In this document: piece by piece, positions 23,263 through 51,674 of the stretch | How the letters are laid out: every line of letters begins with the position of its first letter | Numbering within the stretch: position 1 is the first letter of the stretch | NCBI RefSeq assembly: GCF_038957035.1 | Contig: NZ_CP152412.1 | Location: 5,514,501-5,578,500, forward strand | Direction of reading: 5' to 3' | Source: Bradyrhizobium sp. B097 | Lineage (GTDB): Bacteria; Pseudomonadota; Alphaproteobacteria; Rhizobiales; Xanthobacteraceae | DNA: 64,000 nt | Program-made: the position numbers and the translations under genes | The notes under the pieces: generated by a model | Told to the model about the DNA's origin: nothing | The model's input: the letters and a program-made list of their open reading frames with translations, nothing else | The model's database searches: none

Positions 23263-23478
23263 TTAGCGCGTCGTCTCTCTTGGGAAGACCAGAGACCGGT
23301 CGTCAAAGTCCTCGGCTGGCAACTTGGCTCCACCGCGGGCGCCTTGCAGTTCTTGCAGTATCGAACTGCTTGCGGTCCCGGCCTGCCCGACCGTCGGGAC
23401 CGAGTGTGAGCGCGGGATGCCGAGCACCACGATAACAAACGCGAAAACCATGACGGCCGCTACCACCAGACCTTTCAT
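23263..23478 (-). CDS. Small membrane-anchored protein in the bacteriocin regulon
   Basis: 71 residues. GGAG lies 7 bases before the ATG. The N-terminus is a single hydrophobic helix (GLVVAAVMVFAFVIVVLGIP); the rest is a polar tail of about 50 residues (LQELQGARGGAKLPAEDFDD). No double-glycine leader. A perfect TGTGA-N6-TCACA site lies 78 bases before the start, the same element and distance found at four precursor promoters nearby, so it is probably co-regulated with them. It could be an immunity or accessory membrane protein. Family not recognised. Confidence 0.6.
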   Translation of the reverse strand: MKGLVVAAVMVFAFVIVVLGIPRSHSVPTVGQAGTASSSILQELQGARGGAKLPAEDFDDRSLVFPRETTR

Positions 23479-23554: not shown

Positions 23555-23570
23555 TGTGAACCGCCTCACA
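23555..23570 (-). promoter_or_regulatory. Crp-type site before the 71-residue membrane protein gene
   Basis: TGTGAACCGCCTCACA fits the TGTGA-N6-TCACA consensus exactly. The GTGA-N6-TCAC core is 23556-23569, 78 bases from the ATG at 23478. Confidence 0.65.
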
Positions 23571-24392
23571 TGCCCTGGAAATTTTCTACTGGGGCGCCTT
23601 TCGGGTTCCGCCCGATTAAAGTCGACGGCACAATGGCGCCCTCCGCGAGGATGCGGCCGACAAGACGGATGCTAAAATTGCCGGCGCGTTATCCGCAATT
23701 GAACTTCAATCCACGAGATGGTGTTGCTCTGTTGACGTTCGATCGAACCGCGGCAGCCTCAAAATCGACGCTCACAAGAGTTTTCGCAAGTTGCTTGCGC
23801 GCGTAAAGTACCCCGGCTCGTGGGTTGGTGAACAAAATCGCGGAAATGGTAGAGCGTGGGCAGCCCATCTGGCACCGCGGAGGCAGGTCGGTTCGCAAAC
23901 GCCGACGAACGACGCCGGCTTCTCGGTCGCAGGCAGCTGCCCCGCTTTCATTACTACGATCGCGTCGCGCCGACGCCCGCGTCGAACGGCTGTTCAGGCC
24001 GTCAATGGATTTTTCTTGGTCTCGCCACGTGTTCGCTCACGATGGACTGAGGCATCTGGACGTCATCCCTCAGAGCCCCGCCCATTTCTCGGGCGCAGAT
24101 ACGGCCAGTGCGGTGCCGTCGTCTCACCGATCAGGGAATTGCGGGCGAGCGCGTGAAACCGCGGCTTCGATCTGCTCGTTGAGTGATTCGTTTTTGACCG
24201 CATCACGTCCAAGTTCGAGATAGGCCGGTCCTTCCAGTTTCGCCCGCTCGGCGGCAAGCCGGACTGCCAGGTTCGTCCAGCGTGGTCCGGCAGTCGTCTG
24301 CCCTACCTGCCGCGTACCTTTTACCATACCCGAGGCGCGCCAAATACGCCACTCACTCTGCCGCGAAACCAGCAGGCGCTGGCCTGGTCGAT
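23571..24392. other. Stretch with decayed repeat copy and no confident gene
   Basis: About 820 bases. Positions about 23880-24050 resemble 48055-48215: both have CTTCTCGGTCGCAG, then a GGATTTTTCTTGG-like run, so this seems a decayed copy of the dispersed repeat and its flank. One weak ORF (24124-24327, minus) is listed separately. Confidence 0.4.
24124..24327 (-). CDS. Possible small protein or gene fragment
   Basis: 67 codons from ATG to stop with protein-like, amphipathic content (WTNLAVRLAAERAKLEGPAY, then LNEQIEAAVSRARPQF). No clear ribosome site and no family recognised. It may be the tail of a decayed gene. It is divergent from the first precursor gene. Confidence 0.3.
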   Translation of the reverse strand: MVKGTRQVGQTTAGPRWTNLAVRLAAERAKLEGPAYLELGRDAVKNESLNEQIEAAVSRARPQFPDR

Positions 24393-24408
24393 TGTGACGC
24401 ACGTCACA
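24393..24408 (+). promoter_or_regulatory. Crp-type site before precursor 1
   Basis: TGTGACGCACGTCACA, a perfect TGTGA-N6-TCACA palindrome, ends 74 bases before the ATG of the precursor gene at 24482. TATCCT further downstream could be the -10 element. Confidence 0.7.
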
Positions 24409-24481
24409 GCGACCGTCGCTTGGAGTTCGTATCCTTCCCACACCGGTCGCAATGGAGCCGCCGGCAACAGAGGGAAGGCAG

Positions 24482-24661
24482 ATGAAGATGACGAGCATTC
24501 GTGAACTGTCGGCCGACGAACTGGGAGTCGTTTCGGGCGGCAAGCCGACCAGCCCGGTCAGTGTTCCTGCAAATGCGTTCGACAAGCTGCTGGCGGCGAT
24601 CGACAAGAATCTTGCGATGGTAAAGCAGCTACAGCCCGGCGGTTACCTTCCGCCCGGCTAA
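24482..24661 (+). CDS. Double-glycine-leader bacteriocin-like precursor 1
   Basis: 59 residues. The leader (SIRELSADELGVVSGG) has the LSxxEL-xxVxGG pattern recognised by C39 peptidase exporters; cleavage after GG at about residue 22 would free a 37-residue core beginning KPTSPVSVPANAFDK, with a helix-like middle (LLAAIDKNLAMVKQ) and a Pro/Gly-rich end. GGGAAGG lies just before the ATG at 24482. The exporter with a C39 domain lies 5 kb to the right. A Crp-type site lies 74 bases upstream and a long palindrome 41 bases downstream. No modification enzyme is seen nearby, so an unmodified class II-type peptide is most likely. Confidence 0.8.
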   Translation: MKMTSIRELSADELGVVSGGKPTSPVSVPANAFDKLLAAIDKNLAMVKQLQPGGYLPPG

Positions 24662-24701
24662 GGTAACGAGCCACATTGTGGCCCCCGTGCCCATGGTTGC
24701 A

Positions 24702-24752
24702 GTGGTTACGTTACGGTTCGGTTCTCTAGAGAGCCGATACCGACGTAACCAC
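24702..24752. repeat. 51-base near-perfect palindrome after precursor 1
   Basis: Arms GTGGTTACGT (24702-24711) and ACGTAACCAC (24743-24752) pair perfectly. Inside them CGGTTCGGTTCTC and GAGAGCCGATACCG pair with small bulges around TCTCTAGAGA. It would form a very stable stem-loop in RNA. No T-run follows, so it may protect mRNA ends or be a protein site rather than a simple terminator. Confidence 0.65.
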
Positions 24753-24781
24753 CCGTGCCCTCCTCCGCGGCTTGTGCCGTA

Positions 24782-24895
24782 GTGTTGGAGTATTGCGGCG
24801 TGTCGGCGGACGATCTTCGGAAAGCCATCGAGAAGATCGGCGACTCCGCTACGGTCCAAAAGGAATTGGACTTACTCGACAAATTTCACGAATGA
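24782..24895 (+). pseudogene. Short DUF3606-like coding fragment
   Basis: The frame EYCGVSADDLRKAIEKIG followed by VQKELDLLDKF resembles the C-terminal half of small DUF3606 proteins, which usually have a longer N-terminus. Only a GTG start is available and no ribosome site is visible. Its TGA overlaps the ATG of the next ORF (ATGA). It may be a relic or a very short gene. Confidence 0.35.
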
Positions 24896-25170
24896 CCAAA
24901 CCTAACTGTCCAATCTGCTTCGGCCCGGGAATGATACTGCTCGGCGTCGGAACGTTCTTTGCACAAGTTGTGACGATCGGAATCGTCGGTCGGGCCGCCG
25001 CCGAGAACCCAAGGATCGCAAGTGACAATTATCTGGCCTGTTCTTTTTGTTGGGGGCTTATCGGTACGGCAGTTCCCGGTCAACTGTTCGATTCCTTCGG
25101 GGCATGCGTCGGCGGTATAGTATGTTCTATGGCCGTGGCCGCACTGCTCACTGCAATCCTGACTGCGTAA
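24892..25170 (+). CDS. Small cysteine-containing membrane protein, candidate immunity protein
   Basis: 92 residues. Two to three hydrophobic segments (MILLGVGTFFAQVVTIGIVG; LACSFCWGLIGTAVPG; GGIVCSMAVAALLTAIL) and six cysteines, including CPIC at the N-terminus and CSFC in the middle. The ATG overlaps the stop of the preceding fragment. No family recognised. Its place between precursor 1 and the cyclic-nucleotide-binding gene, and its small size with several helices, fit a bacteriocin immunity protein, but this is inference only. Confidence 0.5.
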   Translation: MTKPNCPICFGPGMILLGVGTFFAQVVTIGIVGRAAAENPRIASDNYLACSFCWGLIGTAVPGQLFDSFGACVGGIVCSMAVAALLTAILTA

Positions 25171-25350
25171 TGGGCGACCTTCGCCAATCAGACCCTGGCC
25201 TTGTGCCAAGATCCGCCGTTTCTACATGTCCGGGTCTTCGCACATCGAAGCGTGCGCTTCACGGACATTTGCAAGCTCCTGCAAGCGCTTGGAAGCAACA
25301 ATGTCAGGACTCTCGGGCCTGATCTTTCGAACGACTCTCAAGACAAGAAG

Positions 25351-25830
25351 CTATCGCTCCGCCTGCTGCACCAACAGCTCGGCAATCCGATCATCGGCGC
25401 GGCGGAGCCTCCGGCAAAGTTCGCGGCCGATATTCTGCATCACTAGGACATACGCGCGGATGTCTGCCTTGCCGTACATGTAAAGGTTTCGAGCCGTGAG
25501 CTCATACAGGACAGTTGGGCTTTGCGCGACGACGGAGGCCGATCGATTCTGCATTTCGATGAGCGTCATCTCGCCAAAGAAATCGCCGGGCTCAAGACCT
25601 GCCATCCGAATTGAGCGCCCCGCACGCCCAAGCTTGCTTACCATGAGCTCGCCGGAGTGAATAACAAACATTGAACGCCCCGGCTCTCCTTCGGCCACGA
25701 TCATCGCGCCGACGTCGAAACGGCGCTCGACAAGCATTGAGATCAACAGATCGAGGCTCGGATCTGACAGCCCTCCGAAAAAAGGCGTGGCAAGCAGGAA
25801 AGCTTTCAATTCGGGAGAGTTGACAGCCAT
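25351..25830 (-). CDS. Stand-alone cyclic-nucleotide-binding domain protein
   Basis: 159 residues. A single cNMP-binding fold: FFGGLSDPSLDLLISML, then GAMIVAEGEPGRSMFVIHSG, then the phosphate-binding-cassette region GDFFGEMTLIEMQNRSASVV. The C-terminus is a helix (IGRELCRRLRRADDRIAELL) and there is no helix-turn-helix, so it cannot bind DNA as Crp does. Such lone domains are found near NHLM-type export loci. It may regulate the exporter or a partner in response to a nucleotide or other signal. Its neighbours are peptide precursor genes with Crp-type promoters. Confidence 0.85.
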   Translation of the reverse strand: MAVNSPELKAFLLATPFFGGLSDPSLDLLISMLVERRFDVGAMIVAEGEPGRSMFVIHSGELMVSKLGRAGRSIRMAGLEPGDFFGEMTLIEMQNRSASVVAQSPTVLYELTARNLYMYGKADIRAYVLVMQNIGRELCRRLRRADDRIAELLVQQAER

Positions 25831-26021
25831 CGCGCTACTATACTGCTACTCCCGGTAGCAGCAAGCCCAGCGGCTCGAGTGAGCACGGCGTCCGCGGGTT
25901 CAGACGAAGCGAAAACTTAGCCAGCGCGATCGCGCGGGCCCGCTTCGCTGTCCCGGTTCATGCCCGACTACAGAGCCGGCCTCGTTGGGGACGCCGGCTC
26001 TGATATGCACCTGCTCGTTGA

Positions 26022-26237
26022 TTACACTGGAAACGGTCCGAACGGACCACTCGTAGGAAAGGTCGGTCCAGTGCCGGTCGGCAGCCGCGGACCACGCCCG
26101 AGCGTCGGAGAAACATAGATCACGCCTCCATGACCGTCCGAAACCGGAATTCCAAAGCAACCGCCGGTCACGGTTTCAAATTCCTCATCGGACAACGGAC
26201 GGACCGTCTGATGCTCATTCTGGTATGCACTCATCAT
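26022..26237 (-). CDS. Double-glycine-leader bacteriocin-like precursor 2
   Basis: 71 residues. Leader ends in PLSDEEFETVTGG, a C39-type double-glycine site; the 45-residue core begins CFGIPVSDGHGG and is rich in Pro, Gly and Thr (GRGPRLPTGTGPTFPTSGPF). One Cys directly follows the cleavage site. The ATG at 26237 is chosen because GGAG lies 6 bases before it; ATGs 6 and 12 bases further upstream are in frame. A Crp-type site lies 80 bases upstream. Unlike precursor 4 the core is not hydrophobic. Confidence 0.75.
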   Translation of the reverse strand: MMSAYQNEHQTVRPLSDEEFETVTGGCFGIPVSDGHGGVIYVSPTLGRGPRLPTGTGPTFPTSGPFGPFPV

Positions 26238-26316
26238 CGTCATCTCCATCTGTCTACGGTGAACGGATGATCCTTGCCATCCAGGTGCAGCTTGCCGCAT
26301 CGACGACCAGCTCGCT

Positions 26317-26330
26317 GTGACCTTGATCAC
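26317..26330 (-). promoter_or_regulatory. Crp-type site before precursor 2
   Basis: GTGACCTTGATCAC, within TGTGACCTTGATCACG, matches GTGA-N6-TCAC exactly. It lies 80 bases before the ATG at 26237. Confidence 0.65.
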
Positions 26331-26433
26331 GCAGCCTGCACGGGCGATGCTGACCCGCACTTTCAGCGGTATCGTCGATGCTGTTGCCGATTGAGGTGCA
26401 GCGGTGAACGATCGACTTGCCGCACAACCACTG

Positions 26434-26470
26434 AAAAAAAATGCGAGGTCCTCGTTTCTGGACCTCGCAT
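26434..26470 (-). terminator. Rho-independent terminator after precursors 4 and 3
   Basis: Arms ATGCGAGGTCC (26441-26451) and GGACCTCGCAT (26460-26470) pair perfectly around an 8-base loop. On the minus strand the stem is followed by eight Ts (26434-26441). It lies 46 bases past the stop of precursor 3. Confidence 0.85.
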
Positions 26471-26515
26471 CGATTGATCCCTTTCCGCTAGCCCAAGGCA
26501 CGAGCCAGGCTTGAG

Positions 26516-26677
26516 CTAGCTCCGAATGGGTCCTCCCGACGAGGTGGGAATGTGAAGTTGGCCCAAAAGCCAATTTATGAAATCGGAAACAGCCGAGCCG
26601 CCGGTTCCGCCATTATTGCGGCTTCCACCGCACGCGGAATCGAGCTCGTCTCCAGTCAACTCACGAATTTTCTGCAT
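26516..26677 (-). CDS. Double-glycine-leader bacteriocin-like precursor 3
   Basis: 53 residues. GAGAGGAG lies 6 bases before the ATG at 26677; the frame ends TAG at 26516-26518. The leader KIRELTGDELDSACGG is a double-glycine type; the core begins SRNNGGTGGSAVSD and contains a hydrophobic helix FINWLLGQLHI before a Ser/Gly/Pro tail. It follows precursor 4 by 110 bases and precedes the terminator, so the two form one transcript, possibly a two-peptide pair. A 15-bp hairpin lies between them and may set their ratio. Confidence 0.75.
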   Translation of the reverse strand: MQKIRELTGDELDSACGGSRNNGGTGGSAVSDFINWLLGQLHIPTSSGGPIRS

Positions 26678-26729
26678 GGTACGCTCCTCTCATCTGTTGG
26701 GCTTCTGCCTGCTGAGCTCCTGCCCGCCG

Positions 26730-26774
26730 CCAAAGCGAAACCCGTGATGCGGGCGCGCCCGGGTCTCGCTTTGG
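26730..26774 (-). promoter_or_regulatory. Intra-operon hairpin between precursors 4 and 3
   Basis: CCAAAGCGAAACCCG (26730-26744) and CGGGTCTCGCTTTGG (26760-26774) pair over 15 positions with one mismatch and a 15-base loop. No T-run follows on the minus strand. It may be an attenuator or a processing and stability element. Confidence 0.55.
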
Positions 26775-26787
26775 TCGGACGGGGTGC

Positions 26788-27018
26788 TCAGAAGATCTGG
26801 CTGATGCAGTACCCGATCCCAGCGAGAAGCCCGCCGCCAATGGCACCGGGTACGGCGCCGATGCCGCCAACCGCCGCACCGCCCATGCCGCCCGTCACTG
26901 TTCCGCCCCCCAGCGCCTTGGCGAAATCTCCCCAGCTCCACTTGCCGCCGGCCACCGCGTCGAGTTCGTCGATGGAGAGCTCGCGGGTGGCTGAATTGTC
27001 GTTCACGTTACGCGTCAT
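26788..27018 (-). CDS. Double-glycine-leader bacteriocin-like precursor 4 (Gly-rich, pore-type)
   Basis: 76 residues. Leader ends RELSIDELDAVAGG; core of about 50 residues begins KWSWGDFAKALGGG and runs into a hydrophobic Gly/Ala-rich helix with several GxxxG motifs (GGMGGAAVGGIGAVPG, then GGGLLAGIGYCISQIF). This resembles Blp-type and two-peptide class II bacteriocins, which insert into membranes. GGAGG lies 7 bases before the ATG at 27018; a longer upstream frame is rejected because it lacks a leader pattern at its N-terminus. A Crp-type site lies 82 bases upstream. First gene of the precursor 4-3 transcript. Confidence 0.83.
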   Translation of the reverse strand: MTRNVNDNSATRELSIDELDAVAGGKWSWGDFAKALGGGTVTGGMGGAAVGGIGAVPGAIGGGLLAGIGYCISQIF

Positions 27019-27099
27019 TTCAGTCCTCCTTGCTGTGTTCATGGTGCGGGACCATCCCGTAACCAGTGTGCAGCATGTCTCTGCTGCCCGGAGGCTTCC

Positions 27100-27113
27100 G
27101 TGAGAATTGTCAC
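27100..27113 (-). promoter_or_regulatory. Crp-type site before precursor 4
   Basis: GTGAGAATTGTCAC matches GTGA-N6-TCAC exactly and lies 82 bases before the ATG at 27018. Confidence 0.65.
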
Positions 27114-27226
27114 TCCAGCTGAACCCCGCTGCAGTCAAGCCGGCTGTTCTGAGCCGCGCGGGCTCCAGGGGTGAAGCCAACGTCGCGCGTCAAAACCCGG
27201 CTCGTGATCGCGCACAATCGCGCCTC

Positions 27227-27240
27227 GTGATGCAGATCAC
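27227..27240. promoter_or_regulatory. Extra Crp-type palindrome without a clear target
   Basis: GTGATGCAGATCAC matches GTGA-N6-TCAC. No gene starts about 80 bases away on the minus strand. On the plus strand an ATG at 27337 with AAGGAG upstream exists, but that frame runs antisense to an exported-protein gene and does not look real. Confidence 0.4.
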
Positions 27241-27396
27241 GCCCGATCTGAATGGCAGATCTATTGTGCTGCGCGGAGTTCGCGAAGGGACGGTCCGTCC
27301 CGGACATCTGGCGGAAAGCACGAAGGAGCGTCCACAATGTGGGACCAGGGATCCGCCGACAGATCCCGCATTCAGCGTCAGCAAATGCGTGGCGCG

Positions 27397-27924
27397 TTAC
27401 AGGCGATCGCGAATGGAGTTCAGGATGCCAGTCGTTGTATCGATGACCCTCAACGCCTCCTGTGCCTTTCCGAACCCCACCGGATTTTTGTTGCATTGCT
27501 CGGACAACTGCACCAGCCGCTTTCTCTCGCCCGTCAGAATGACGTTGGTTTTATCGACCGCAAACTTGACGACACCTCGCAACGGACTGTCGTCACCGAC
27601 GTCGGTCAAGTCCTTCTCCATCGTGATCAGATATTCGTAACTGGCGAGTTCGTCGGAAATCTGCAGAAGCTCGCGGATCGTGGAGTTGACACAGACGATG
27701 TCCCCGTTCGGTACGTCCGAGCGCTTGACGGTCTCGACGAGATCACTCATCAGATTCGCAAACAACGGCTTCAAGCTTTCCGCCTGCTTGCGATCGCTCT
27801 CGGAAAGGACCCCGGCCTGTGAGACAGGGGACCATAGCAAACCCAGCGCTACACTCGTCACGAGCACGGCCTGCTGCGCGTGCGCTGCAAACAACCGCCT
27901 TGCCCTGCCGCTCAGCGTGCGCAT
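27397..27924 (-). CDS. Exported protein of unknown function in the bacteriocin locus
   Basis: 175 residues. Signal peptide (QQAVLVTSVALGLLWSPVSQAG) and then a mostly helical soluble domain with two cysteines that could form a disulfide (IVCVNSTIRELL and LSEQCNKNP). Conserved-looking helices include ESLKPLFANLMSDLVETVK and ELASYEYLITMEKDL. It should reside in the periplasm. It is divergent from the secretion-adaptor gene with 61 bases between them. Candidate roles are immunity or an export accessory; no family recognised. Confidence 0.65.
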   Translation of the reverse strand: MRTLSGRARRLFAAHAQQAVLVTSVALGLLWSPVSQAGVLSESDRKQAESLKPLFANLMSDLVETVKRSDVPNGDIVCVNSTIRELLQISDELASYEYLITMEKDLTDVGDDSPLRGVVKFAVDKTNVILTGERKRLVQLSEQCNKNPVGFGKAQEALRVIDTTTGILNSIRDRL

Positions 27925-27985
27925 TCGAGCCTCGGCACCGATTTCGCGCCGGTCGTTGTTGTGACCACGTCTGATCTATGCGAAG

Positions 27986-29341
27986 ATGTCGACATATTCA
28001 TTCAATCAATTCAGTCCTTTGCGTGCTGATATGTCCACCTCGGAAACGCTCGGACAGCCGGAGAATAGGAGTGCGACCTCCGAGCCGCAACGGGCATTTC
28101 GGGCGATGGCGCTCGATCGCGCGGCCTCGCCTGAACAGCTTGATCAGCTCGTCGTCATCACCAGGCCTGCGGACTGGATTATAACGGTCGTTTTCCTTGT
28201 TGCGGTGGTGGCCGCGGTCGTGTGGAGCATTTTCGGGCGCGTACCCACCCGCGTCTCCGGCGAGGGAATCCTGATCAGCAATGGTGGCAAGGTGGTCGAC
28301 GCGGTCTCGGCCGCGGCCGGCCGGCTGCAGTCCGTTGCCGTCACTGTCGGCGACCACGTCGACCTTGGCCAGTCGATCGCTCAGATCGTTCAGACCGACA
28401 TTGAGCAGAAGCACACGGCGGCGGTCGAAGTATTACGGGAGCGCCAGCGCGAATATACCGACCTCAAATCGAAGGTCGCAGCCGAGCTCGCCGCCAAGAG
28501 TCAGAATTTCGAGAAACTCGAAGCCGCACTCGAGCAAGTCATCAAGGCGACCGGCCAGCGCGTCGATTATCTGTCGGTTGACGTCAAGAACCTCGAAGGG
28601 CTGCTCGCGAAGGGTTACACGACGCGACGCAACCTGGAGGACCGACGCCAGGAACTGAGCGATGCGCAGCAACGCCGCCTCGACGCGCAGAATGAGATTC
28701 TCAAGCTCAGGGCGCAGAAGACGGACCTTGAAACACAGCGCGAACGCGACATTCAACAATCCGAATTTACCCTGAACGAAGCGCGCCGGCAGGTGAATGC
28801 GGCCGCGGAGCAGTTGAGCCAGAATACGCAGGTCCTCAGTCCGATGGAAGGCCGTGTCCTCGAAGTGAAGATCTCTCCCGGCTCGGTACTCTCGGTCGGG
28901 ATGCCCGTGGTCCAGATCGAAACCGAAGGCAGCAAGCTCCAGGCCATCGTCTATATTCCAGCTGAACATGGCAAGCAGATCAAGCCGGGGATGCAGGTTC
29001 ATCTCGAGCCGAGCACCGTCAAACGCGAAGAGTTTGGCATGATGCTGGGCACGGTTTTGAGAGTCTCTGACTTCCCGATGACGCCTCAGGGCATCAGCGC
29101 GGCGTTGCACAATGAAAGCCTGGTGTCCCGCTTCTCCCACAACGGCGCGCCATATGCTGCCGAGGTGGCACTTCAAGAGGATGATTCCACCGCGACGGGC
29201 TATCGCTGGGCCGTGGGCAATGGGCCTGCCACTCATTTGACGAGCGGAACCCTGGCGCACGCGGAAATCACAACTCGGCGGCAACGGCCGCTCGATCTGG
29301 TGATCCCCTTGATCAGGCACCTAACGGGAATTGATGGATAA
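27986..29341 (+). CDS. HlyD-type membrane-fusion protein of NHLM bacteriocin export system
   Basis: 451 residues. One membrane helix near residue 60-80 (WIITVVFLVAVVAAVVW), then a barrel/lipoyl half (GEGILISNGGKVVDAVSAAA, VGDHVDLGQSIAQI), a long coiled coil about residues 140-275, and the second lipoyl half (SPMEGRVLEVKISPGSVL). This is the layout of HlyD-family adaptors linking an inner-membrane ABC exporter to the outer envelope; with its neighbours it fits the NHLM bacteriocin system secretion protein. The ATG at 27986 has only a weak ribosome site; a later ATG at 28031 is possible. Its stop overlaps the start of the C39-ABC gene. Confidence 0.88.
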   Translation: MSTYSFNQFSPLRADMSTSETLGQPENRSATSEPQRAFRAMALDRAASPEQLDQLVVITRPADWIITVVFLVAVVAAVVWSIFGRVPTRVSGEGILISNGGKVVDAVSAAAGRLQSVAVTVGDHVDLGQSIAQIVQTDIEQKHTAAVEVLRERQREYTDLKSKVAAELAAKSQNFEKLEAALEQVIKATGQRVDYLSVDVKNLEGLLAKGYTTRRNLEDRRQELSDAQQRRLDAQNEILKLRAQKTDLETQRERDIQQSEFTLNEARRQVNAAAEQLSQNTQVLSPMEGRVLEVKISPGSVLSVGMPVVQIETEGSKLQAIVYIPAEHGKQIKPGMQVHLEPSTVKREEFGMMLGTVLRVSDFPMTPQGISAALHNESLVSRFSHNGAPYAAEVALQEDDSTATGYRWAVGNGPATHLTSGTLAHAEITTRRQRPLDLVIPLIRHLTGIDG

Positions 29342-31535
29342 GTCCCCTCCCACGTCGGCAAACGCGCGGCACGGTCGCCTATCGGGACTGCTGCGCAAGC
29401 AGGTGAAGCGGACCCCGGTTGTCCTGCAGATGGAGGCGGTCGAATGCGGCGCTGCGGCGCTCGCAATCATTCTCGCCTATCACGGCGCCTGGATTCCCCT
29501 GGAGCAGCTCCGCATTGCCTGCGGCGTTTCGCGCGACGGAAGCAAGGCCAGCAACATCGTCAGGGCGGCGCGGCGCTACGGCCTAGTTGCAAGGGGGTAC
29601 AGTGTCGAGCCGCCCGCGCTGACTACGCTTCCGACACCCTGCATCATCCACTGGAACTTCAATCATTTTGTGGTCCTGGAGGGTATCAAGGCCCGGCACG
29701 CCTATATCAACGATCCTGCGAGCGGCCGCAGACGCATTAGCTTGGCCGAGCTCGATCTTGCCTTCACCGGAGTGGTGCTGGTCTTCGAGCGCGGCGAAGA
29801 GTTCAAAATGGTCGGCAGCAAGCCCAACGGGATCGGGCTGCTGCTGCAAGAGTTGCGTCATTCAAGGGCGGCGGTTGTCCTGCTGGTGATCGTGAGTATC
29901 GTGCTCGTCGTTCCCAATATCCTTGCCGCAGGCTTCTCCAAGATTTTTGTCGACGACATTCTGATCCAGCACAACAATCGCTGGCTCATGCCACTCCTGA
30001 TCGGAATGGCGCTAACGGCGGCCTGTCGCGCGGTGATGGTCGCGGTTCGTCAGTCGGTGTTATTACGATTGCAGGCCAAGCTCTCTGTTGTCATGACCAG
30101 TCGCTTCCTGTGGCGCGTGATGGCGCTGCCGATGGAATTCTTTACCCAGCGCCATGCCGGGGACGTTGCCAGCCGCGTTGCGTCGAACGAGCAGGTCGCA
30201 CGCCTTTTGTCCGGCGGAATTACGATGAACGCGCTCAGCTTGACGTCGGTGCTGCTGTTTGCCGGCGCGATGGCGGTCTATGACGTCAGCCTGACGGTGC
30301 TGTGCGTCGCGATCGCCTTGCTGAACGTTCTCCTGCTTCGCCTGGTTGGGGCGCGACGGCAGGAGCTCAGCTACCGGCTCGCGGTTGAACGGGGCAAGCT
30401 CCTGGGCGCCACGGTGGGCCTGGTGCGTACCATCGAAACCATCAAGGCGAGCGGCCAGGAGGATGACGCGTTTGGCAAATGGGCGGGCCTCCAGGCCAAC
30501 AATCTGAACGCCGAACAGAGGCTTGGTGCATCGGCCATCATCTTGGACATGATGCCGACGCTGCTCTCCGGGCTGATGGTCGCGGCGATCCTCGGGCTCG
30601 GTGGTTTGCGGGTTATCGAAGGCTCGCTGACGCTTGGCAGCCTGGTTGCATTCCAATCCCTGGCGGCGAACTTCTCGGAACCATTCGAGAATCTCGTCAA
30701 CTATTTCGGCGGCCTGCAGACCATCAAGGGAGCGCTCGAACGGCTCGAGGATATTCGCAAATACCCACTCCGGCCCGCGCCATCCGGCAACGCCATCGAT
30801 AGCGTTCCATCAAAGCTTGCCGGCAGGGTCGAGCTTCGCAACATCAGCTTCGGCTATTCGGTTCTGGAACCGCCGCTGCTGGCCGACCTGTCGCTGGCGA
30901 TCCCTGCGGGATCGCGCGTGGCACTTGTCGGCGTCTCCGGCAGCGGAAAATCGACGCTCGGCAAATTGATCTGTGGGCTGTACGAGCCGTGGGCGGGAGA
31001 AATTCTATTCGATCAATGGAAGCTGGCGGAGCTTCCATCCCAGGAGTTCGCAAATTCCGTCTCCTATGTGGACCAGGATATATTTCTGTTCGAGGGGACC
31101 GCGCGCGACAACCTGACCCTTTGGGATTCGACGGTGGATGAGCGCGACTTGATCGCCGCCGCGCGGGATGCGTTGATCCATCACGACCTGGCCACGCGTC
31201 CCGGAAACTATGACTGCCACATCAATGAGGGCGGCGGCAATTTCAGCGGAGGGCAACGCCAACGTATCGAAATCGCTCGGGCGTTAGTCTGCAATCCGTC
31301 GATTCTCGTCCTGGACGAAGCAATGGCCGCCCTCGATCCGATCACGGAAAAGGTCATCGACGACAACCTGCGACGCCGAGGCTGCACCTGCATTATCATC
31401 GCACATCGCCTGAGCACTGTGCGTGATTGCGACGAAATCATCGTGCTGGAGCATGGCCGGATCGTGGAACGTGGCACCCACGAACAGCTTGTCGCGCTCC
31501 AGGGCGCCTATGCAAGGCTCGTGACAAGCGAATGA
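29334..31535 (+). CDS. C39 peptidase-ABC exporter (NHLM bacteriocin type)
   Basis: 733 residues. Cleaves double-glycine leaders and exports the cores. The N-terminal C39 peptidase has catalytic Cys38 (QMEAVECGAAALA), His111 (WNFNHFVVL) and Asp127 (INDPAS). A six-helix transmembrane domain follows (about residues 165-440). The ATPase domain has Walker A GVSGSGKST, signature FSGGQRQR, Walker B ILVLDEAMAALD and switch His in IIAHRLS. The ATG at 29334 is preferred over a TTG one codon earlier. Overlaps with the adaptor gene upstream and the second ABC gene downstream (ATGA) indicate one operon. It is the likely processing enzyme for the five precursors. Confidence 0.93.
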   Translation: MDKSPPTSANARHGRLSGLLRKQVKRTPVVLQMEAVECGAAALAIILAYHGAWIPLEQLRIACGVSRDGSKASNIVRAARRYGLVARGYSVEPPALTTLPTPCIIHWNFNHFVVLEGIKARHAYINDPASGRRRISLAELDLAFTGVVLVFERGEEFKMVGSKPNGIGLLLQELRHSRAAVVLLVIVSIVLVVPNILAAGFSKIFVDDILIQHNNRWLMPLLIGMALTAACRAVMVAVRQSVLLRLQAKLSVVMTSRFLWRVMALPMEFFTQRHAGDVASRVASNEQVARLLSGGITMNALSLTSVLLFAGAMAVYDVSLTVLCVAIALLNVLLLRLVGARRQELSYRLAVERGKLLGATVGLVRTIETIKASGQEDDAFGKWAGLQANNLNAEQRLGASAIILDMMPTLLSGLMVAAILGLGGLRVIEGSLTLGSLVAFQSLAANFSEPFENLVNYFGGLQTIKGALERLEDIRKYPLRPAPSGNAIDSVPSKLAGRVELRNISFGYSVLEPPLLADLSLAIPAGSRVALVGVSGSGKSTLGKLICGLYEPWAGEILFDQWKLAELPSQEFANSVSYVDQDIFLFEGTARDNLTLWDSTVDERDLIAAARDALIHHDLATRPGNYDCHINEGGGNFSGGQRQRIEIARALVCNPSILVLDEAMAALDPITEKVIDDNLRRRGCTCIIIAHRLSTVRDCDEIIVLEHGRIVERGTHEQLVALQGAYARLVTSE

Positions 31536-34420
31536 GTAACCCCGGCACGAGGGATGAGTTTGCGACCGCGAGGCCAATTGAAGCCCCCGCCCCTTACCGC
31601 GTGGCGGTCGATCCGCGGCATCCCATTCTCCTCAACGAACGCGATCAGGTACTGGAGGTGAGCGCCGGTCATATCGATATCTTCGCCGTGGAGGCGGACG
31701 GCGTCCGACATCATCTGCTTCGATGTGAAATTGGCGAAGTCATACTGGACCTGCACACGGCCTGTGAAAGGTCAGCGATTCAGTTGCAGATCGTCGCAGT
31801 CGGGGGTCCCGACGCGGAGATCATCACGGTCTCACGAAGCGAGATCGCCACGGAACGCATGTCGGGCTGGATCGGCCGGGTCTCCATGCTCGCGGCCGGC
31901 TCGGCCCGATCGGACAACGCTTCCGAATTGATCGGCGGCGAAACAAGTGAACTGCGTCCAGGCGAGCGTTGCCGTGGCCCAAAGCGAAGCATCGTGTGGG
32001 CCCGCATCGAAGCAGGAGGCGTGAAAGTATTGGATCTCGACCTCGAGCTCGAGGCCGGAGGTCCCTTCATTCCGCTCACAGCGGAGGTCTGGCTGGAAGC
32101 CGGCGAGAGTGGCGCCAGAATCACAGCAGAGCCGACCGCGCCTGAATTGCCTCTGGTCTGGCTGGCCCTCGACCGCTTCCATGTCGCGATTGCCGCCAGT
32201 CTGGAGCGGTGGCTTCGACATGAGCGGTCGTCCGAGCGGCAGCAACTCGCCCGGCGAGCCGAACTGACCCGTGCGCGAACGCTGGATGCTCTTGAGCGTC
32301 TGTCCGAAGTTGTCACCGCGCCAACCGGTCGGACGCAGGTCGAGCTGGATGCCAGCGATCCCCTGCTCGCCAGTTGCCGCCTCGTTGCGGACGCATCGGG
32401 AAGCTCCATCATTCATGCGAGCCGAACGCATCCCGCAAGCCAGAGTTTCAGCGACATCCTGCAGATCGCGCGTGCATCGCGGTTACGAATTCGCCGCGTC
32501 CAGTTGCGCGATCGTTGGTGGAAGTCGGATGCCGGCCCCCTGCTGGGGTGGCATGGGCCCGAAAGAGACCCGGTCGCTCTGATCCGTGACCGGCGCGGCC
32601 GGTACACGATGATCGATCCGAAGCAAGAATGGCGGCAACCGGTCGGTGGCTCGGTTGCAAGCGCTCTCGCACCGGAAGCCGTCAGCTTCTACAAAGCCTT
32701 GCCCGCGCACCCACTTCGCTATCGTGATCTGCTGTCATTCGCGACCGGAGGCCTCTCCGGCAGCATGGTCCGCATGACCCTCGTGATCATTGCCATCGGG
32801 TTGCTGTCGCTGATACCGCCGCTGGTGACGAATCTGCTGGTCAATTCCGTGATCCCCCGCACGGAGATCGACCAGCTCGTCGTTTGCGCGGCAGCGCTCT
32901 CCGTCACCGCGATCGCGATAGCGGGACTGCAGGGAATGCAGGGACTGGTCACGCTCCGGCTCGAAGGCCTCCTCGATTACAAGCTCCAGGCCGCCCTCAT
33001 CGATCGACTGCTCCGGTTACCGGCGTCGCTGTTTCGCGACTACACGACCGGAGATTTGGTCGACCGGTCGATGGGCATTGAAGCGACGCGCCAGATCGTT
33101 ACCGGACGGACCTTGCGAGGCTTTACATCGGCCCTGTTCGGGATTTTCAGTATTGGGCTCATGCTCTACTACGACCTCAGACTCGGCAGTATCGCGCTTC
33201 TACTGATCGCGCTCCGGGCGGCCGCAATCGTCGCTACCAGCGCCGTGCGAATCTACTACGAAAGCAAGCACTTCAATCTGCAAGGCAAGGTCAGCGGTTT
33301 GGTGCTGCAACTGATCGCCGGCGTCAGCAAGCTTCGCGTGGCGAACGCCGCAAGTCGCGCACTGGCGCGATGGTCGGGACAATTCGCCGTTCAGAAGCGC
33401 TACTTCATCGCCTCGCAGCTAGCGGCCAACGTGCTGGTCGTGTTCGAGACGGCCTTCCCCCTTCTAGCCGTGTTGATCATTTTTGCGGTCGCCTCGCGCA
33501 CCAACAGTCAGCTCTTGGCCAATCTCGGCGCCTTTCTCGGTTTCCTCTCCGCGTTCGGACAGACCACGGCAGCGATCGGCAACTTTGCCTCGAGCATGAG
33601 CGAATCGCTGGTGGTCATCCCCCATCTCACCAGGATGAAGCCGATTCTCTCCGCCGCCGCCGAGATCGCTGAAGATCGGCGGCCCGCAGGCGAGCTGATA
33701 GGTGAAATCGAGTTTTCCGGTGTCACATTCCGCTATATCGAGGGTGGACCTACGGTTCTTAATGACATTACCTTGCGTGTTTCGAGGGGCGAGTATGTGG
33801 CAATTGTCGGCCCTTCGGGCAGCGGAAAATCATCGCTGTTGCGATTGCTGCTGGATTTCGAACGACCGGAAGCCGGGACGATCTTCTATGACGGCAAGGC
33901 GCTGAACACGGTTGAGACCAACGACGTGCGCCGCCAGCTCGGCGTTGTACTGCAAGACACCAAGCTGGCAACGGGCAGTCTATACGAAAACATTTGCGGC
34001 GGCGTCGACCTGACGCTGGACAAAGCCTGGGAGGCCGCGCGGCTCGCGGCGCTCGATGCCGATATTCGGCAGATGCCGATGGGTATGCACACGCTCGTTG
34101 CGGAAGGCATCAATACGCTCTCGGGCGGACAGCGCCAGAGAGTCCTCATCGCCCGCGCGCTGGCACGTTCGCCACGCATCTTGCTTTTTGACGAAGCAAC
34201 GAGCGCGCTCGACAACCAGACCCAGGCGATCGTCGGAGCCTCGCTGGAGCGGCTGAATGTCACGCGGATTGTTATTGCTCATCGGCTGAGCACAATCCGC
34301 CACGCGGATCGAATCGTGATGCTGGTCGGTGGCAAGATCGTGCAATCGGGAAGCTATGACGAGCTGACGAGTGGAACCGGCCCATTTGCAGAGTTCGCGC
34401 GGAGACAGCTTGTGGTCTAG
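31532..34420 (+). CDS. Second ABC protein of NHLM bacteriocin export system, with long N-terminal domain
   Basis: 962 residues. About 430 N-terminal residues precede the transporter and lack a C39 catalytic Cys; they include a part (LLNERDQVLEVSAGHIDIFA) resembling the N-terminal region of NHLM ATP-binding proteins. The transmembrane domain spans about 435-710 (MVRMTLVIIAIGLLSLIPPL and others). The ATPase has Walker A GPSGSGKSS, signature LSGGQRQR and Walker B ILLFDEATSALD. It probably pairs with the C39-ABC protein as a heterodimer, or acts at a different step. Its ATG overlaps the previous stop; upstream in-frame codons inside that gene are rejected. No sign of decay. Confidence 0.9.
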   Translation: MSNPGTRDEFATARPIEAPAPYRVAVDPRHPILLNERDQVLEVSAGHIDIFAVEADGVRHHLLRCEIGEVILDLHTACERSAIQLQIVAVGGPDAEIITVSRSEIATERMSGWIGRVSMLAAGSARSDNASELIGGETSELRPGERCRGPKRSIVWARIEAGGVKVLDLDLELEAGGPFIPLTAEVWLEAGESGARITAEPTAPELPLVWLALDRFHVAIAASLERWLRHERSSERQQLARRAELTRARTLDALERLSEVVTAPTGRTQVELDASDPLLASCRLVADASGSSIIHASRTHPASQSFSDILQIARASRLRIRRVQLRDRWWKSDAGPLLGWHGPERDPVALIRDRRGRYTMIDPKQEWRQPVGGSVASALAPEAVSFYKALPAHPLRYRDLLSFATGGLSGSMVRMTLVIIAIGLLSLIPPLVTNLLVNSVIPRTEIDQLVVCAAALSVTAIAIAGLQGMQGLVTLRLEGLLDYKLQAALIDRLLRLPASLFRDYTTGDLVDRSMGIEATRQIVTGRTLRGFTSALFGIFSIGLMLYYDLRLGSIALLLIALRAAAIVATSAVRIYYESKHFNLQGKVSGLVLQLIAGVSKLRVANAASRALARWSGQFAVQKRYFIASQLAANVLVVFETAFPLLAVLIIFAVASRTNSQLLANLGAFLGFLSAFGQTTAAIGNFASSMSESLVVIPHLTRMKPILSAAAEIAEDRRPAGELIGEIEFSGVTFRYIEGGPTVLNDITLRVSRGEYVAIVGPSGSGKSSLLRLLLDFERPEAGTIFYDGKALNTVETNDVRRQLGVVLQDTKLATGSLYENICGGVDLTLDKAWEAARLAALDADIRQMPMGMHTLVAEGINTLSGGQRQRVLIARALARSPRILLFDEATSALDNQTQAIVGASLERLNVTRIVIAHRLSTIRHADRIVMLVGGKIVQSGSYDELTSGTGPFAEFARRQLVV

Positions 34421-34687
34421 CCAACTGGTCGATCGGCCTGCTTACCACAATCCCTCCATTCAGTCCTATGCCCTGACGACTACGAGCACAAAGCATCTCG
34501 GACATGACGTCATGTCGTCCTGACCAGAGTGCCATGGTCGCAAGAGGCGACCAACTCACAGGTTCTGTCCACGTCGGCTGTGGGAAAGGATGACGCGCGG
34601 CCACTTGCTGCGCAATCGTCACGCAGCAAGTCTTTGATTCACCGAGCCGCATCGCGGATCGCGTGCCAGCGCCGATCCCGACGAAGA
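34421..34687. other. Spacer between exporter gene and precursor 5
   Basis: 267 bases between convergent genes. No convincing gene, and no terminator with a T-run was found by eye. Confidence 0.4.
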
Positions 34688-34861
34688 TCAGAAGGGCCAA
34701 ATTGATTTGACGATACCTTCCACCACGCCGATGACCTGCTTGATTCCGCGAACCAGGCCGTGACCACCGTTACCCGTGCCGGTGCCGTTGCCGTCACCGT
34801 CCGCACCGCCGACCACACGATCGAGGGCTTCCATCGACATTTCATGGTCGAACTTGTTCAT
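34688..34861 (-). CDS. Double-glycine-leader bacteriocin-like precursor 5 (cationic helix)
   Basis: 57 residues. Leader ends SMEALDRVVGG; the 38-residue core starts ADGDGNGTGTGNGGHG, a flexible Gly linker, and ends in a cationic amphipathic helix GLVRGIKQVIGVVEGIVKSI with terminal WPF. AGGAG lies 7 bases before the ATG at 34861; another ATG two codons earlier is in frame but too close to that site. A Crp-type site lies 80 bases upstream. The gene lies beyond the exporter operon and points back toward it, apart from the other precursors. Confidence 0.78.
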   Translation of the reverse strand: MNKFDHEMSMEALDRVVGGADGDGNGTGTGNGGHGLVRGIKQVIGVVEGIVKSIWPF

Positions 34862-34940
34862 AGCCATTCTCCTGTTTTCGGGAGGGGCCATCCCCTCAAG
34901 CCGTGACCACACGCATACGAGGTCATCCGGCTAGTCGGCC

Positions 34941-34954
34941 GTGATCCACGTCAC
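34941..34954 (-). promoter_or_regulatory. Crp-type site before precursor 5
   Basis: GTGATCCACGTCAC matches GTGA-N6-TCAC exactly, 80 bases before the ATG at 34861. Confidence 0.65.
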
Positions 34955-35502: not shown

Positions 35503-37071
35503 TTACCAGTTGCGCTGGGCGCGCAGGAGCAGAGTGTAGGTGTCCTGGTCCTTCAGCTCGTAGAGAGCTGCCGGCTTGCCGATCGCACCACTGCCCGGAT
35601 AGCTGATCACACCAGCATATTTCTGGTCCAGATGGGTGTAGGTGAAGTCTGCCGAGAAGGCCAGGTTCTTCACTGGAGTCCACTGGGTCTGGGTACCGAG
35701 CTGCGCGATGCTGTAGTCGGGGTTACACGAGGTCAAGCGAGCGACACCAAACGTCGCGCCGAACGTACCGCCTACGCCGCTGCCGGTCGGACCGCAGATG
35801 TAGGTCTTGGCTGTACCATTGTACGATACGCCCGCGTAAGCACCGTAGATGCTGGTATTCCAGTTCGGGCCCCAGTTGTGGACATAAGCACCGCGCATAC
35901 CCCAAGTCGAGACGAGTTGCTGCGAGCCACCAGTGACAAATACGCTGTCCGGGGCAATGCCGAAGCCAATGCTTTGATAGGCGCCAGCCACGCTGGTGCC
36001 ACCGAAAATGGTGTTCGCACCAGCCTGAGCGGACAGCTCCTGGATGTTGTAACGGGTCGCACCGTTCGTATACACGCCCTGGACGTTGATCGTGTCGCCA
36101 GGTCCGCTCTGGATGTCCTTGATCGACAAGGCCAACTGACCTGCCCAACCCCACTTGTCGTCCGGATGACCGGTGACCTCGGTGGAGCCGTAATAGGCTG
36201 CGTGATTGTCATGGGCGGCGAGCGATCCCTGAAACAGACCCCATGCCTGATCGACACGCAGCATGGCGATGAAGTCCGGCGAAATCGTGCCAGCATAGTC
36301 GCTGGCGCCATAAGGACCGAGAGCCGCAAAGCCAGCCGCGCCAAAAGGCGCAGCCAGGTTGTTCACGCCAGCCTGATTGTAAGCCGACTGATCCTGAGCC
36401 GACAGAGACAGCGACACGCCGTCGCCGAACTGCGCGGTGTAGGTGAACTGGTTCACACCGGTGCTCGTGCCGCCGCCACCAACGAGGCCGTCGAAGTTGT
36501 TGCCCGGATAGCCGGTCCAGGGCGTACTGAACTGCGAAATCGCTTTGCCGATGGTGAAGCCAGCGAACTGGATGAAGGCGTAGTACACGCCCAGCGTACC
36601 AGCAGCCACCGCACCGCCGTTGGCGTTGTTCGGGGCCGAAGCCGTGCCGATCGGCGAGTAGACGGTCGTGCCGTTGCCCTGCCCGGCGTAGCTGTCCGTC
36701 GTCCAGGAGAAGGTAGAATTCAAGTACGTGCGGAGCACGCCGTACTCGGTCGCGGTGCGCGTATCGATGTTCAGGCCTTCACGGGAGCGCCAAGTATAAC
36801 CGTTGGTGAAACGGTTCTGAGCACCACCAGCGCCCGCAGTATTGCCTGTGGCGTCCGCATTGGTGTTCGCCAGCACGTCGACGCGCAGATAGCCGCTCAG
36901 CTTAAGACAGGTGTCGGTGCCCGGAATGTAGTAGAAACCGGGACCATACAGGGAGCAAACCTTCACGTATTCGACCGCTTTGGCCTTGACGGGAAGATCG
37001 GCCGCCTGTGCTCCGCTCATCGCGACGAGACCTGCCGCTGAACCAAGCATAAGGCTCTTAATCATCTTCAT
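35503..37071 (-). CDS. Outer-membrane porin (Omp2/Porin_2 family)
   Basis: 522 residues. Signal peptide (SLMLGSAAGLVAMSGAQAAD) and the family opening VEYVKVCSLYGPGFYYIPGT with the constriction-region cysteines (KVCSLYG, TDTCLKLSGY). Many alternating beta-strand segments follow and the chain ends in the C-terminal aromatic (LLLRAQRNW) used for barrel insertion. Alphaproteobacterial porins of this type form trimeric general diffusion channels. The gene has its own terminator. Upstream lies one copy of a LysR-type promoter element that is shared with catabolic genes, so this porin may be a substrate-specific, induced channel. Confidence 0.95.
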   Translation of the reverse strand: MKMIKSLMLGSAAGLVAMSGAQAADLPVKAKAVEYVKVCSLYGPGFYYIPGTDTCLKLSGYLRVDVLANTNADATGNTAGAGGAQNRFTNGYTWRSREGLNIDTRTATEYGVLRTYLNSTFSWTTDSYAGQGNGTTVYSPIGTASAPNNANGGAVAAGTLGVYYAFIQFAGFTIGKAISQFSTPWTGYPGNNFDGLVGGGGTSTGVNQFTYTAQFGDGVSLSLSAQDQSAYNQAGVNNLAAPFGAAGFAALGPYGASDYAGTISPDFIAMLRVDQAWGLFQGSLAAHDNHAAYYGSTEVTGHPDDKWGWAGQLALSIKDIQSGPGDTINVQGVYTNGATRYNIQELSAQAGANTIFGGTSVAGAYQSIGFGIAPDSVFVTGGSQQLVSTWGMRGAYVHNWGPNWNTSIYGAYAGVSYNGTAKTYICGPTGSGVGGTFGATFGVARLTSCNPDYSIAQLGTQTQWTPVKNLAFSADFTYTHLDQKYAGVISYPGSGAIGKPAALYELKDQDTYTLLLRAQRNW

Positions 37072-50267: not shown

Positions 50268-51674
50268 CTAAACAAACACGGTCTGGACGGTGGTGAACTC
50301 CTTCAGCCCATCGACCCCGAATTCCACGCCGAAGCCTGACTGCTTCACGCCGCCGAACGGCGCGTTCGGCTGAATGGCGCCGTGCTTGTTGATCCAGACC
50401 GATCCGGATTCGATGCGTTGCGCGACCGCCTTCGCACGCGCGAGGTCGGTTCCCCAGACCGAGCCGCCGAGCCCCAGCGCGCTCGCATTGGCCTTGGCAA
50501 TCGCGTCCTCGACGTCGGAATAGCGGATGATCGGCAGAGCCGGGCCGAACTGCTCCTCGTCCACCAGCCTGCAGCCGTGATCGACGTCGGCAACCAGCGT
50601 CACAGGATAGAAGTAACCAGGGCCGCCGGGCGGATCGCCGCCGACCAGCACCCGACCGCCCTTCTTGCGCGCCTCTTCGACGAGGGCCGAGACGATCTCG
50701 AACTGCCGGCGATTCTGCACCGGACCAAGCGTCGAGGTCTCGGAGAGACCGTCGCCGACGACGATCTGCTTCGCATAGGCCGCGAGCTCGCGGCAAAGCT
50801 CGTCATACAGGCTGTCGTGGACATAGAGCCGCTTCAGCGCCGCACAGGTCTGACCGCCATTGATGAATGCGCCCCAGAACAGGCCCTCGACGATCTTCTT
50901 CGGGTCGGCATCCGGCAGCACGATCCCGGCGTCGTTGCCACCGAGCTCGAGCGTCAGGCGCTTCAAGCTGCCCGCCGCATTCTGCATGATCTTGCGGCCG
51001 GTCGCGGTCGATCCCGTAAACGTCACCTTGCCGATTCCGGGATGCGCCGACATCAGGCTGCCGATCTCGTTGTCGCCGGTGACGACATTCACCACGCCCG
51101 GAGGCAGTTTCTCATTGATCAGCTCGACCAGACGGATCGTGCTCAACGGCGTCAATGGCGACGGCTTGATGATCACGGCGTTGCCTGCGCGGATCGCCGG
51201 GATGATATGCCAGCACGCGATCATGACCGGCCAGTTCCACGGCGTGATCGAGCCGACGACCCCGATCGGCTTGCGATGTAGCTCGACCCGTCCTTCGGCA
51301 CCGTCCTGCAGGACTTCCACCGGCAGCGACAAACCGCTGGTATGGCGTGTCCAGGCCACGGCGCCACCGATCTCGAAACGCGAACCTAACCCGTTCAGCG
51401 GCTTGCCCTGCTCGAGCGTCAGGAGCCGCGCAAGTTCCTCGGCATGCTGCTCGATCGTATCGGCGATCGCGCGACAGGCATCGGCACGCTCGCTATCGGG
51501 CCGGTCCTTCCAGATTTCAAACGCCCTGGAGGCGGCCGCAACCGCGGCGTCGAGATCGGACGCCGTCGCGAGCGGCATTCCGCCGACCACGGCGCCGGTC
51601 GACGGGTTGAGGACGTCCTGGAAACGATCTGTCTCGATCCGGCGCCCGTCGATAAGCAAGCTCCAGCGCTGCAT
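50268..51674 (-). CDS. NAD(P)-dependent aldehyde dehydrogenase
   Basis: 468 residues, normal length for the superfamily. Cofactor-domain motif GVVGSITPWNWPVMIA with IKPSPLTPLS, GSTATGRKI, the general base Glu in LTLELGGNDAGIV and the nucleophile Cys in GGQTCAALKRLY. Oxidises an aldehyde to an acid, probably the product of the GMC enzyme encoded just downstream. GAGGAG precedes the ATG. A direct-repeat site matching those before the SDR and binding-protein genes lies 58 bases upstream, suggesting control by the AraC protein encoded next to it. Confidence 0.93.
   Translation of the reverse strand: MQRWSLLIDGRRIETDRFQDVLNPSTGAVVGGMPLATASDLDAAVAAASRAFEIWKDRPDSERADACRAIADTIEQHAEELARLLTLEQGKPLNGLGSRFEIGGAVAWTRHTSGLSLPVEVLQDGAEGRVELHRKPIGVVGSITPWNWPVMIACWHIIPAIRAGNAVIIKPSPLTPLSTIRLVELINEKLPPGVVNVVTGDNEIGSLMSAHPGIGKVTFTGSTATGRKIMQNAAGSLKRLTLELGGNDAGIVLPDADPKKIVEGLFWGAFINGGQTCAALKRLYVHDSLYDELCRELAAYAKQIVVGDGLSETSTLGPVQNRRQFEIVSALVEEARKKGGRVLVGGDPPGGPGYFYPVTLVADVDHGCRLVDEEQFGPALPIIRYSDVEDAIAKANASALGLGGSVWGTDLARAKAVAQRIESGSVWINKHGAIQPNAPFGGVKQSGFGVEFGVDGLKEFTTVQTVFV

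Follow-up and report, generated by a model that had tools for sequence, protein, structure and literature searches.

The window, that is, the whole stretch of 64,000 nucleotides that was analysed, belongs to a 9.25 Mb chromosome and carries an NHLM/NHLP peptide export locus (Table 1). The export operon scored 309 bits with TIGR03794 (cut-off 156), 1018 bits with TIGR03796 (cut-off 853) and 846 bits with TIGR03797 (cut-off 709), all three above cut-off as in the NHLM/NHLP bacteriocin export systems. An adaptor, a peptidase-ABC1, an ABC2 protein and precursors with double-glycine leaders, the parts that define such a locus, were all recognised here from the sequence. The nearest named relatives of the ABC2 protein belong to Bradyrhizobium (88-92% identity for the best six). 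None of the five precursors gave a Pfam match above cut-off. Precursor 3 shares the strand of precursor 4, starts 110 bases past the end of that gene and is therefore probably co-transcribed with it.

Three other small genes were compared with 60 related loci of the genus (the sample is described below). The 71-aa membrane-like protein had a relative in only one of them. The 159-aa protein with a cyclic-nucleotide-binding domain was at least 70% identical to proteins of 19 loci, with seven more weak matches, and showed a weak likeness, below cut-off, to TIGR03896 (bacteriocin-type transport-associated); possibly it brings a second cyclic-nucleotide input to the export step. The 175-aa protein had relatives in 47 of the 60 loci, no NCBIfam match and a single weak Pfam match below cut-off.

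Table 1. Genes, CRP-type boxes and promoter elements in the window. Positions after the box are counted from the box; E values refer to the promoter model R1.
Feature	Position	Strand	Remarks
71-aa small membrane-like protein gene	23263..23478	-	not a double-glycine precursor
CRP-type box of the 71-aa protein gene	23556..23569	-	perfect TGTGA-N6-TCACA; TAATCA at position 37 (TA there, last base not a pyrimidine); 77 bases to start codon
CRP-type box of precursor 1	24394..24407	+	perfect TGTGA-N6-TCACA; TATCCT at position 37; E 1.8e-10; 74 (ATG 24482) or 80 (ATG 24488) bases to start codon
Precursor 1	24482..24661	+	double-glycine leader IRELSADELGVVSGG
159-aa cyclic-nucleotide-binding domain protein	25351..25830	-	inside the locus; no recognised DNA-binding domain or HTH
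Precursor 2	26022..26234	-	leader VRPLSDEEFETVTGG
CRP-type box of precursor 2	26317..26330	-	CAAGCT at position 37; E 3.0e-10; 82 bases to start codon
Precursor 3	26516..26677	-	leader IRELTGDELDSACGG; no box of its own
Precursor 4	26788..27018	-	leader TRELSIDELDAVAGG; Bacteriocin_IIc-like at E 1.4e-4, under the curated cut-off
Shared promoter layout, example of precursor 4	27016..27115	-	box, -10-like CATGCT, stem-loop CGGGA-TGG-TCCCG, ribosome-binding site, start codon
CRP-type box of precursor 4	27100..27113	-	CATGCT at position 37; E 2.2e-11; 81 bases to start codon
Second, distal box	27227..27240	.	intergenic; 208 bases ahead of precursor 4; nothing -10-like at position 37
175-aa protein of unknown function	27397..27924	-	
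NHLM/NHLP peptide export operon	27986..34420	+	HlyD-type adaptor, peptidase-ABC1, ABC2
Precursor 5	34688..34861	-	leader DHEMSMEALDRVVGG
CRP-type box of precursor 5	34941..34954	-	-10-like TATGCG from position 38, one base further; E 1.9e-9; 79 bases to start codon
Box inside ORF	36443		within the 522-aa ORF 35503-37071
Box inside ORF	51079		within the 468-aa ORF 50268-51674

The sequence-only reading of this DNA had described five perfect GTGA-N6-TCAC palindromes at 78, 74, 80, 82 and 80 bases from the start codons of the 71-aa protein gene and precursors 1, 2, 4 and 5. All five were recovered, perfect and in place, 74-82 bases ahead of the four double-glycine precursor genes and the 71-aa protein gene, and the distances agreed within 2 bases depending on the ATG chosen. 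The list itself was short by three perfect sites, at 27227, 36443 and 51079, the last two within ORFs. The 522-aa ORF around the box at 36443, porin-like in our own reading, had no NCBIfam match. The distal box of precursor 4 recurred at 209, 191 and 223 bases in the related loci L072, L077 and L086. No box was found near the start of the exporter operon, the closest upstream one (27227) lying more than 700 bases from the first start codon.

Eight boxes in the window stand against 0.84 expected from the mean of 100 dinucleotide shuffles, in which the maximum was four. With the rate of the genome itself (216 matches in 9,252,481 bases), the probability was 1.7e-4 for eight boxes in 64 kb and 3.9e-7 for six boxes in 11.4 kb, the latter stretch having been picked once the sites were known.

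Alignment of 31 non-redundant promoters on the box revealed a -10-like element at positions 37-43 as the strongest conserved block downstream of it. Among 27 promoters less than 65% identical to one another, 14 had the motif YAW..Y starting at position 37, and no other position had it more than twice. The distance from the box to the start codon varied between 57 and 84 bases (69 boxes); the distance from the box to the -10-like element was fixed in the aligned promoters. In class II CRP promoters the box is centred at -41.5. As the -10-like element starts at position 37, the boxes described here would be centred at the same place, and a box near -41.5 beside a -10 element is what the promoters display at the level of sequence. 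Class II promoters are defined by the overlap of the box with the -35 region (excerpt of PMC5449483). In the window, the full YAW..Y stood at position 37 in three of the five promoters (precursors 1, 2 and 4) and was absent there from the other two, which counts against the class II reading. A promoter model built on sequence alone (R1) matched the 9.25 Mb genome four times at E below 1e-8, each time at a precursor promoter of this locus; the next match had E 0.007. The promoter of the 71-aa protein gene did not appear among the R1 matches up to E 5; hence this gene has the box and TA at position 37 without the rest of the layout.

Conservation was followed in 265 genomes of the genus, the own one included. 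The ABC2 gene was present in 70 of them at E <=1e-100, with 75 matches, one being that of the window; 60 regions taken out of these matches, the remainder left out, made up the sample of related loci. A leader motif that we built from the five precursors of the window picked 118 candidate precursors in the window and the 60 regions. The box preceded 69 of the 118 within 110 bases and 71 within 250 bases, lying at 65-90 bases in 68 cases and elsewhere in three. A further 23 candidates had no box of their own but followed a box-led precursor, and 24 had neither box nor box-led neighbour, a counterpoint to common control that has to be read with the origin of the list in our own motif. The same regions held 52 boxes without an assigned candidate, 15 of which, as seen by eye, precede double-glycine precursors missed by the motif, so that 118 is an undercount (the scripted motif applied behind the unassigned boxes was too strict, catching 3/52 vs 15 by eye).

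Of 3328 palindromes (256 half-sites x 13 spacings) counted ahead of the candidates, GTGA-N6-TCAC came first, and when upstreams at least 60% identical were removed, the box was retained in 31/58. The runners-up, TGTG with spacing 8 (20) and TGAC with spacing 4 (17), both overlap the same box; AGGG with spacing 6 (17), also among the next palindromes, fits the hairpin discussed below. Nineteen loci sampled in other families of the order had no perfect box within 150 bases upstream of any of their 18 candidate precursors. CRP-type control of NHLM precursors therefore looks, as far as sampled, like an addition made in Bradyrhizobium, by which the loci of this genus would differ from the other NHLM/NHLP loci of the order.

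Two further arrangements were seen in the related loci. Near-identical precursor pairs (M[TI]ERSN.. then MLN..) occurred twice per locus in opposite directions, each pair being box-led, in L096, L097, L102, L103, L104, L106 and L107. In the clade L089-L092 and L128, two boxes 37-38 bases apart lay upstream of precursors.

Boxes in the rest of the genome were sampled as the first 73 of the 216 sites by coordinate, with genes taken from our own codon-score caller, which called 82% of the sampled DNA as coding. Forty-five boxes lay inside called genes and 28 outside (binomial P 3.2e-5). A genome scan for random placement, proposed earlier as a check, thus gave a mixed but favourable outcome: an intergenic excess on the one side, an intragenic background of 45/73 on the other. 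YA at position 37, in either direction, accompanied 15 of the 28 intergenic boxes (next best of 22 positions, 8) vs 6 of the 45 intragenic ones, and the full YAW..Y was found there in 5/28 vs 1/45. Outside the peptide genes, too, the box of this genome seems to work as a class II site. Since intergenic boxes elsewhere have the same geometry, the box is not specific to the peptide genes, and these look like part of a larger CRP regulon. A gene with a class III cyclase domain (L010, C1:233646) has a box some 135 bases ahead of it, through which CRP feedback on cyclase supply is possible.

The 216 genome matches and the intragenic share of the sample are what might be expected if the sites had arisen by chance or from base composition, or were inherited only through recent duplication of one promoter. 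The shuffles, the palindrome rank on non-redundant upstreams and the absence of the box from the 18 precursors of other families speak against chance, which these tests already exclude. The earlier judgement that chance was very unlikely was borne out by the shuffles, by the probabilities at the genome's own rate and by the same placement of the box in relatives. Duplication alone is insufficient, because intergenic boxes elsewhere in the genome keep the same spacing; shared ancestry of some promoters is likely and is compatible with function. Chance and duplication taken together are an extremely improbable explanation. The reading of the boxes as predicted binding sites of a CRP-type activator at class II promoters of the precursors is, by comparison of these sequences, very probably correct.

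The motif types before the precursors were compared next to the box. The claim that the sites follow the Crp consensus and not the FixK/FNR box held: the core GTGA-N6-TCAC was perfect in all five reported boxes (the full TGTGA-N6-TCACA 16-mer in two), and FixK/FNR-type TTGA-N6-TCAA preceded none of the 118 candidates. For Clr of Sinorhizobium meliloti, a strict consensus HGTYHCNNNNGRWACA and a loose core GTNNCNNNNGNNAC have been described (excerpt of PMC10127613). The strict consensus was found in 0/118 candidate upstreams. The loose core was present in 20, in 17 of them as GTGAC-N4-GTCAC, which makes these CRP-type boxes too, and in three without GTGA/TCAC; it agrees with 17 of the 70 boxes that precede candidate precursors and, among the five reported, with the one at 24394. 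In these upstreams GTGA is the better predictor than the Clr core.

The Crp HTH family had 26 matches in the own genome, 19 of them over cut-off. Among the CRP/FNR-type helices as we read them, only L017 (TRESINK) and L020 (ARESVNR) possess an R-E recognition helix, and both join a helix of this R180/E181 type to a cNMP-binding domain. L017, encoded at C1:3160090-3160848, is GlxR-like; its best solved relatives were 3i54/3d0s (TRESINK vs SRETVNK). In order, these relatives were 3i54/3d0s/3mzh/3h3u, which we take to be Rv3676 of Mycobacterium, then 7pza, presumably Clr of S. meliloti, and then 4byy/4cyd/3r6s, which we regard as GlxR. GlxR (Corynebacterium) and Rv3676 are thus the closest solved relatives of L017 and share its R-E residues; they differ in that the host here is an alphaproteobacterium and the predicted control is that of peptide precursors. 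Clr resembles the present case as a cAMP/cGMP-responsive CRP-like protein of a root-nodule bacterium, with 7pza homologous to both candidates, but its helix, SRPKVNR, is without the glutamate, its strict consensus fits none of the 118 upstreams, and its loose core without GTGA/TCAC fits three. The R-E pair (residues R180/E181) is used by E. coli CAP (excerpt of PMC10127613), R180 is linked to the G of GTGA (excerpt of PMC1274295), and the GlxR consensus is TGTGANNTANNTCACA (excerpt of PMC4254451). CRP homologues of Bradyrhizobium and Sinorhizobium group with those of Actinobacteria (excerpt of PMC5449483), and L017 would be of this kind.

Other members of the CRP/FNR superfamily, responding to nitrosative stress or oxygen (HcpR-, NnrR- or FixK-like), could in principle read such a box, given that HcpR of Desulfovibrio has the CRP-like motif wTGTGAnnnnnnTCACAw (excerpt of PMC1274295) and that the genome encodes FixK-like proteins, L016, L018 and L019, recognised by us from LETVSR/IETVSR. 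These three have L or I at the R180 position, which the same source ties to the G of GTGA; the R-E pair is confined to L017 and L020 among the helices read, and the lack of TTGA-N6-TCAA before the candidates points the same way. A regulator of this class is highly improbable.

L020 (C1:341 kb) is the other protein that might read the box in place of the GlxR-like CRP. Besides its helix, cNMP-binding domain and Crp HTH, it was detected in all 32 box-bearing genomes tested (two by partial matches), and a gene with Cache, HAMP, GAF and class III cyclase domains lies 2.4 kb from it, beyond an AsmA-family gene. The best solved relative of L020 is 7pza, and the strict consensus of Clr is missing before the precursors; this argument is weak, since Clr is without the glutamate that L020 has. 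Relatives of L017 (E <=1e-60) were present in 257 of the 265 genus genomes, five of the eight misses being less than 90% complete, so conservation does not separate the two candidates, relatives having been counted by similarity and the R-E helix read in the own proteins. What favours the GlxR-like CRP over L020 is a perfect TGTGA-N6-TCACA box directly behind the L017 gene in 13 of 20 genomes (absent in seven), with TA at position 37 in 13/13 and, 59-66 bases further in 11 of the 13, a script-picked gene encoding a membrane-like protein of 83-89 aa. In L221 (1502-1851), the neighbour of the GlxR-like CRP gene encodes a membrane-like protein of 89 aa and shows this box and TA spacing. Ahead of the GlxR-like gene itself no perfect box was found in the about 0.98 kb of L017, where the sole one stands directly behind the gene. 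We consider the GlxR-like CRP probable as the regulator of the precursors, and L020 a clearly less likely rival. The genome's 29 class III cyclase domains are only permissive for a response to cAMP.

The earlier proposal of one Crp-like regulon for peptide production finds strong support for the precursors in genus conservation, class II geometry and two genome-encoded cNMP regulators with the R-E pair; it does not extend to the exporter, which has no box near its start, nor to a box reserved for peptides. With the GlxR-like CRP as the favoured regulator, a CRP-family dimer, presumably bound to cAMP, would sit on GTGA-N6-TCAC centred at -41.5 in place of a -35 element and would recruit RNA polymerase to the -10 element beginning 22 bases after the box. 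The double-glycine precursor genes would be switched on in this way, and the NHLM transporter would presumably cleave and export their products. Binding, activation over repression, and cAMP as the ligand are what we infer from these data. The E. coli class II CRP promoters of the galP1 type share the overlap with the -35 region, the centre at -41.5 from the (here inferred) start and the GTGA-N6-TCAC core; the promoters described here differ in looser flanks (the full 16-mer in 2/5), in a GlxR-like candidate regulator and in starts that are deduced from the -10 element.

Many of the promoters also contain a short 5' UTR stem-loop, whose loop falls some 30 bases ahead of the ATG and whose stems differ widely (GAGGGG/CCCCTC, GTTGCGGGG/TCCCGCAGC, TGGCGAGG/TCTCGCCA). 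Hairpin strength exceeded that of dinucleotide shuffles at p <0.05 in 12 of 29 promoters, with a mean z of 1.67, and was above the mean of the own mononucleotide shuffles in 38 of 41. Taken singly, the four precursor promoters of the window did not stand out (p 0.88 for precursor 1 and 0.08-0.17 for precursors 2, 4 and 5, with 0.17 for precursor 4). RNAalifold on a MAFFT alignment of 39 promoters returned the box palindrome only and no 5' UTR hairpin; the hairpins look misaligned in that alignment. By these comparisons the hairpin is likely real, and it is possible that it forms a second layer of control. We tentatively suggest, as a reading that is rather less probable than not, that promoter, hairpin and double-glycine leader make up one expression cassette under a global CRP of actinobacterial type, with the hairpin as the second control point.

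CRP control of enteric bacteriocins offers a precedent for regulation of this sort. Bacteriocin-like activity has been reported in B. japonicum (PMC4520892). Among the papers listed, taken by title and opening part of the abstract, neither a CRP target set in Bradyrhizobium nor any control of its NHLM peptides was found. Class II CRP control is familiar as such; among those listed titles and abstract openings, no case came up in which it switches diverse NHLM peptides throughout a genus.

Altogether, the analysis predicts that a CRP-like protein would switch secreted peptides on together, here and in many relatives. It provides a genus-wide, concrete target set, a promoter geometry at base resolution and two candidate regulators, and it makes testable when soil and nodule bacteria deploy secreted peptides and what purpose their many cyclases serve. 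If the tentative cassette is true, new or diverged core peptides attached to it would immediately be controlled by cyclic nucleotides and exported by NHLM, and Bradyrhizobium would possess a plug-in system for secreted peptides.
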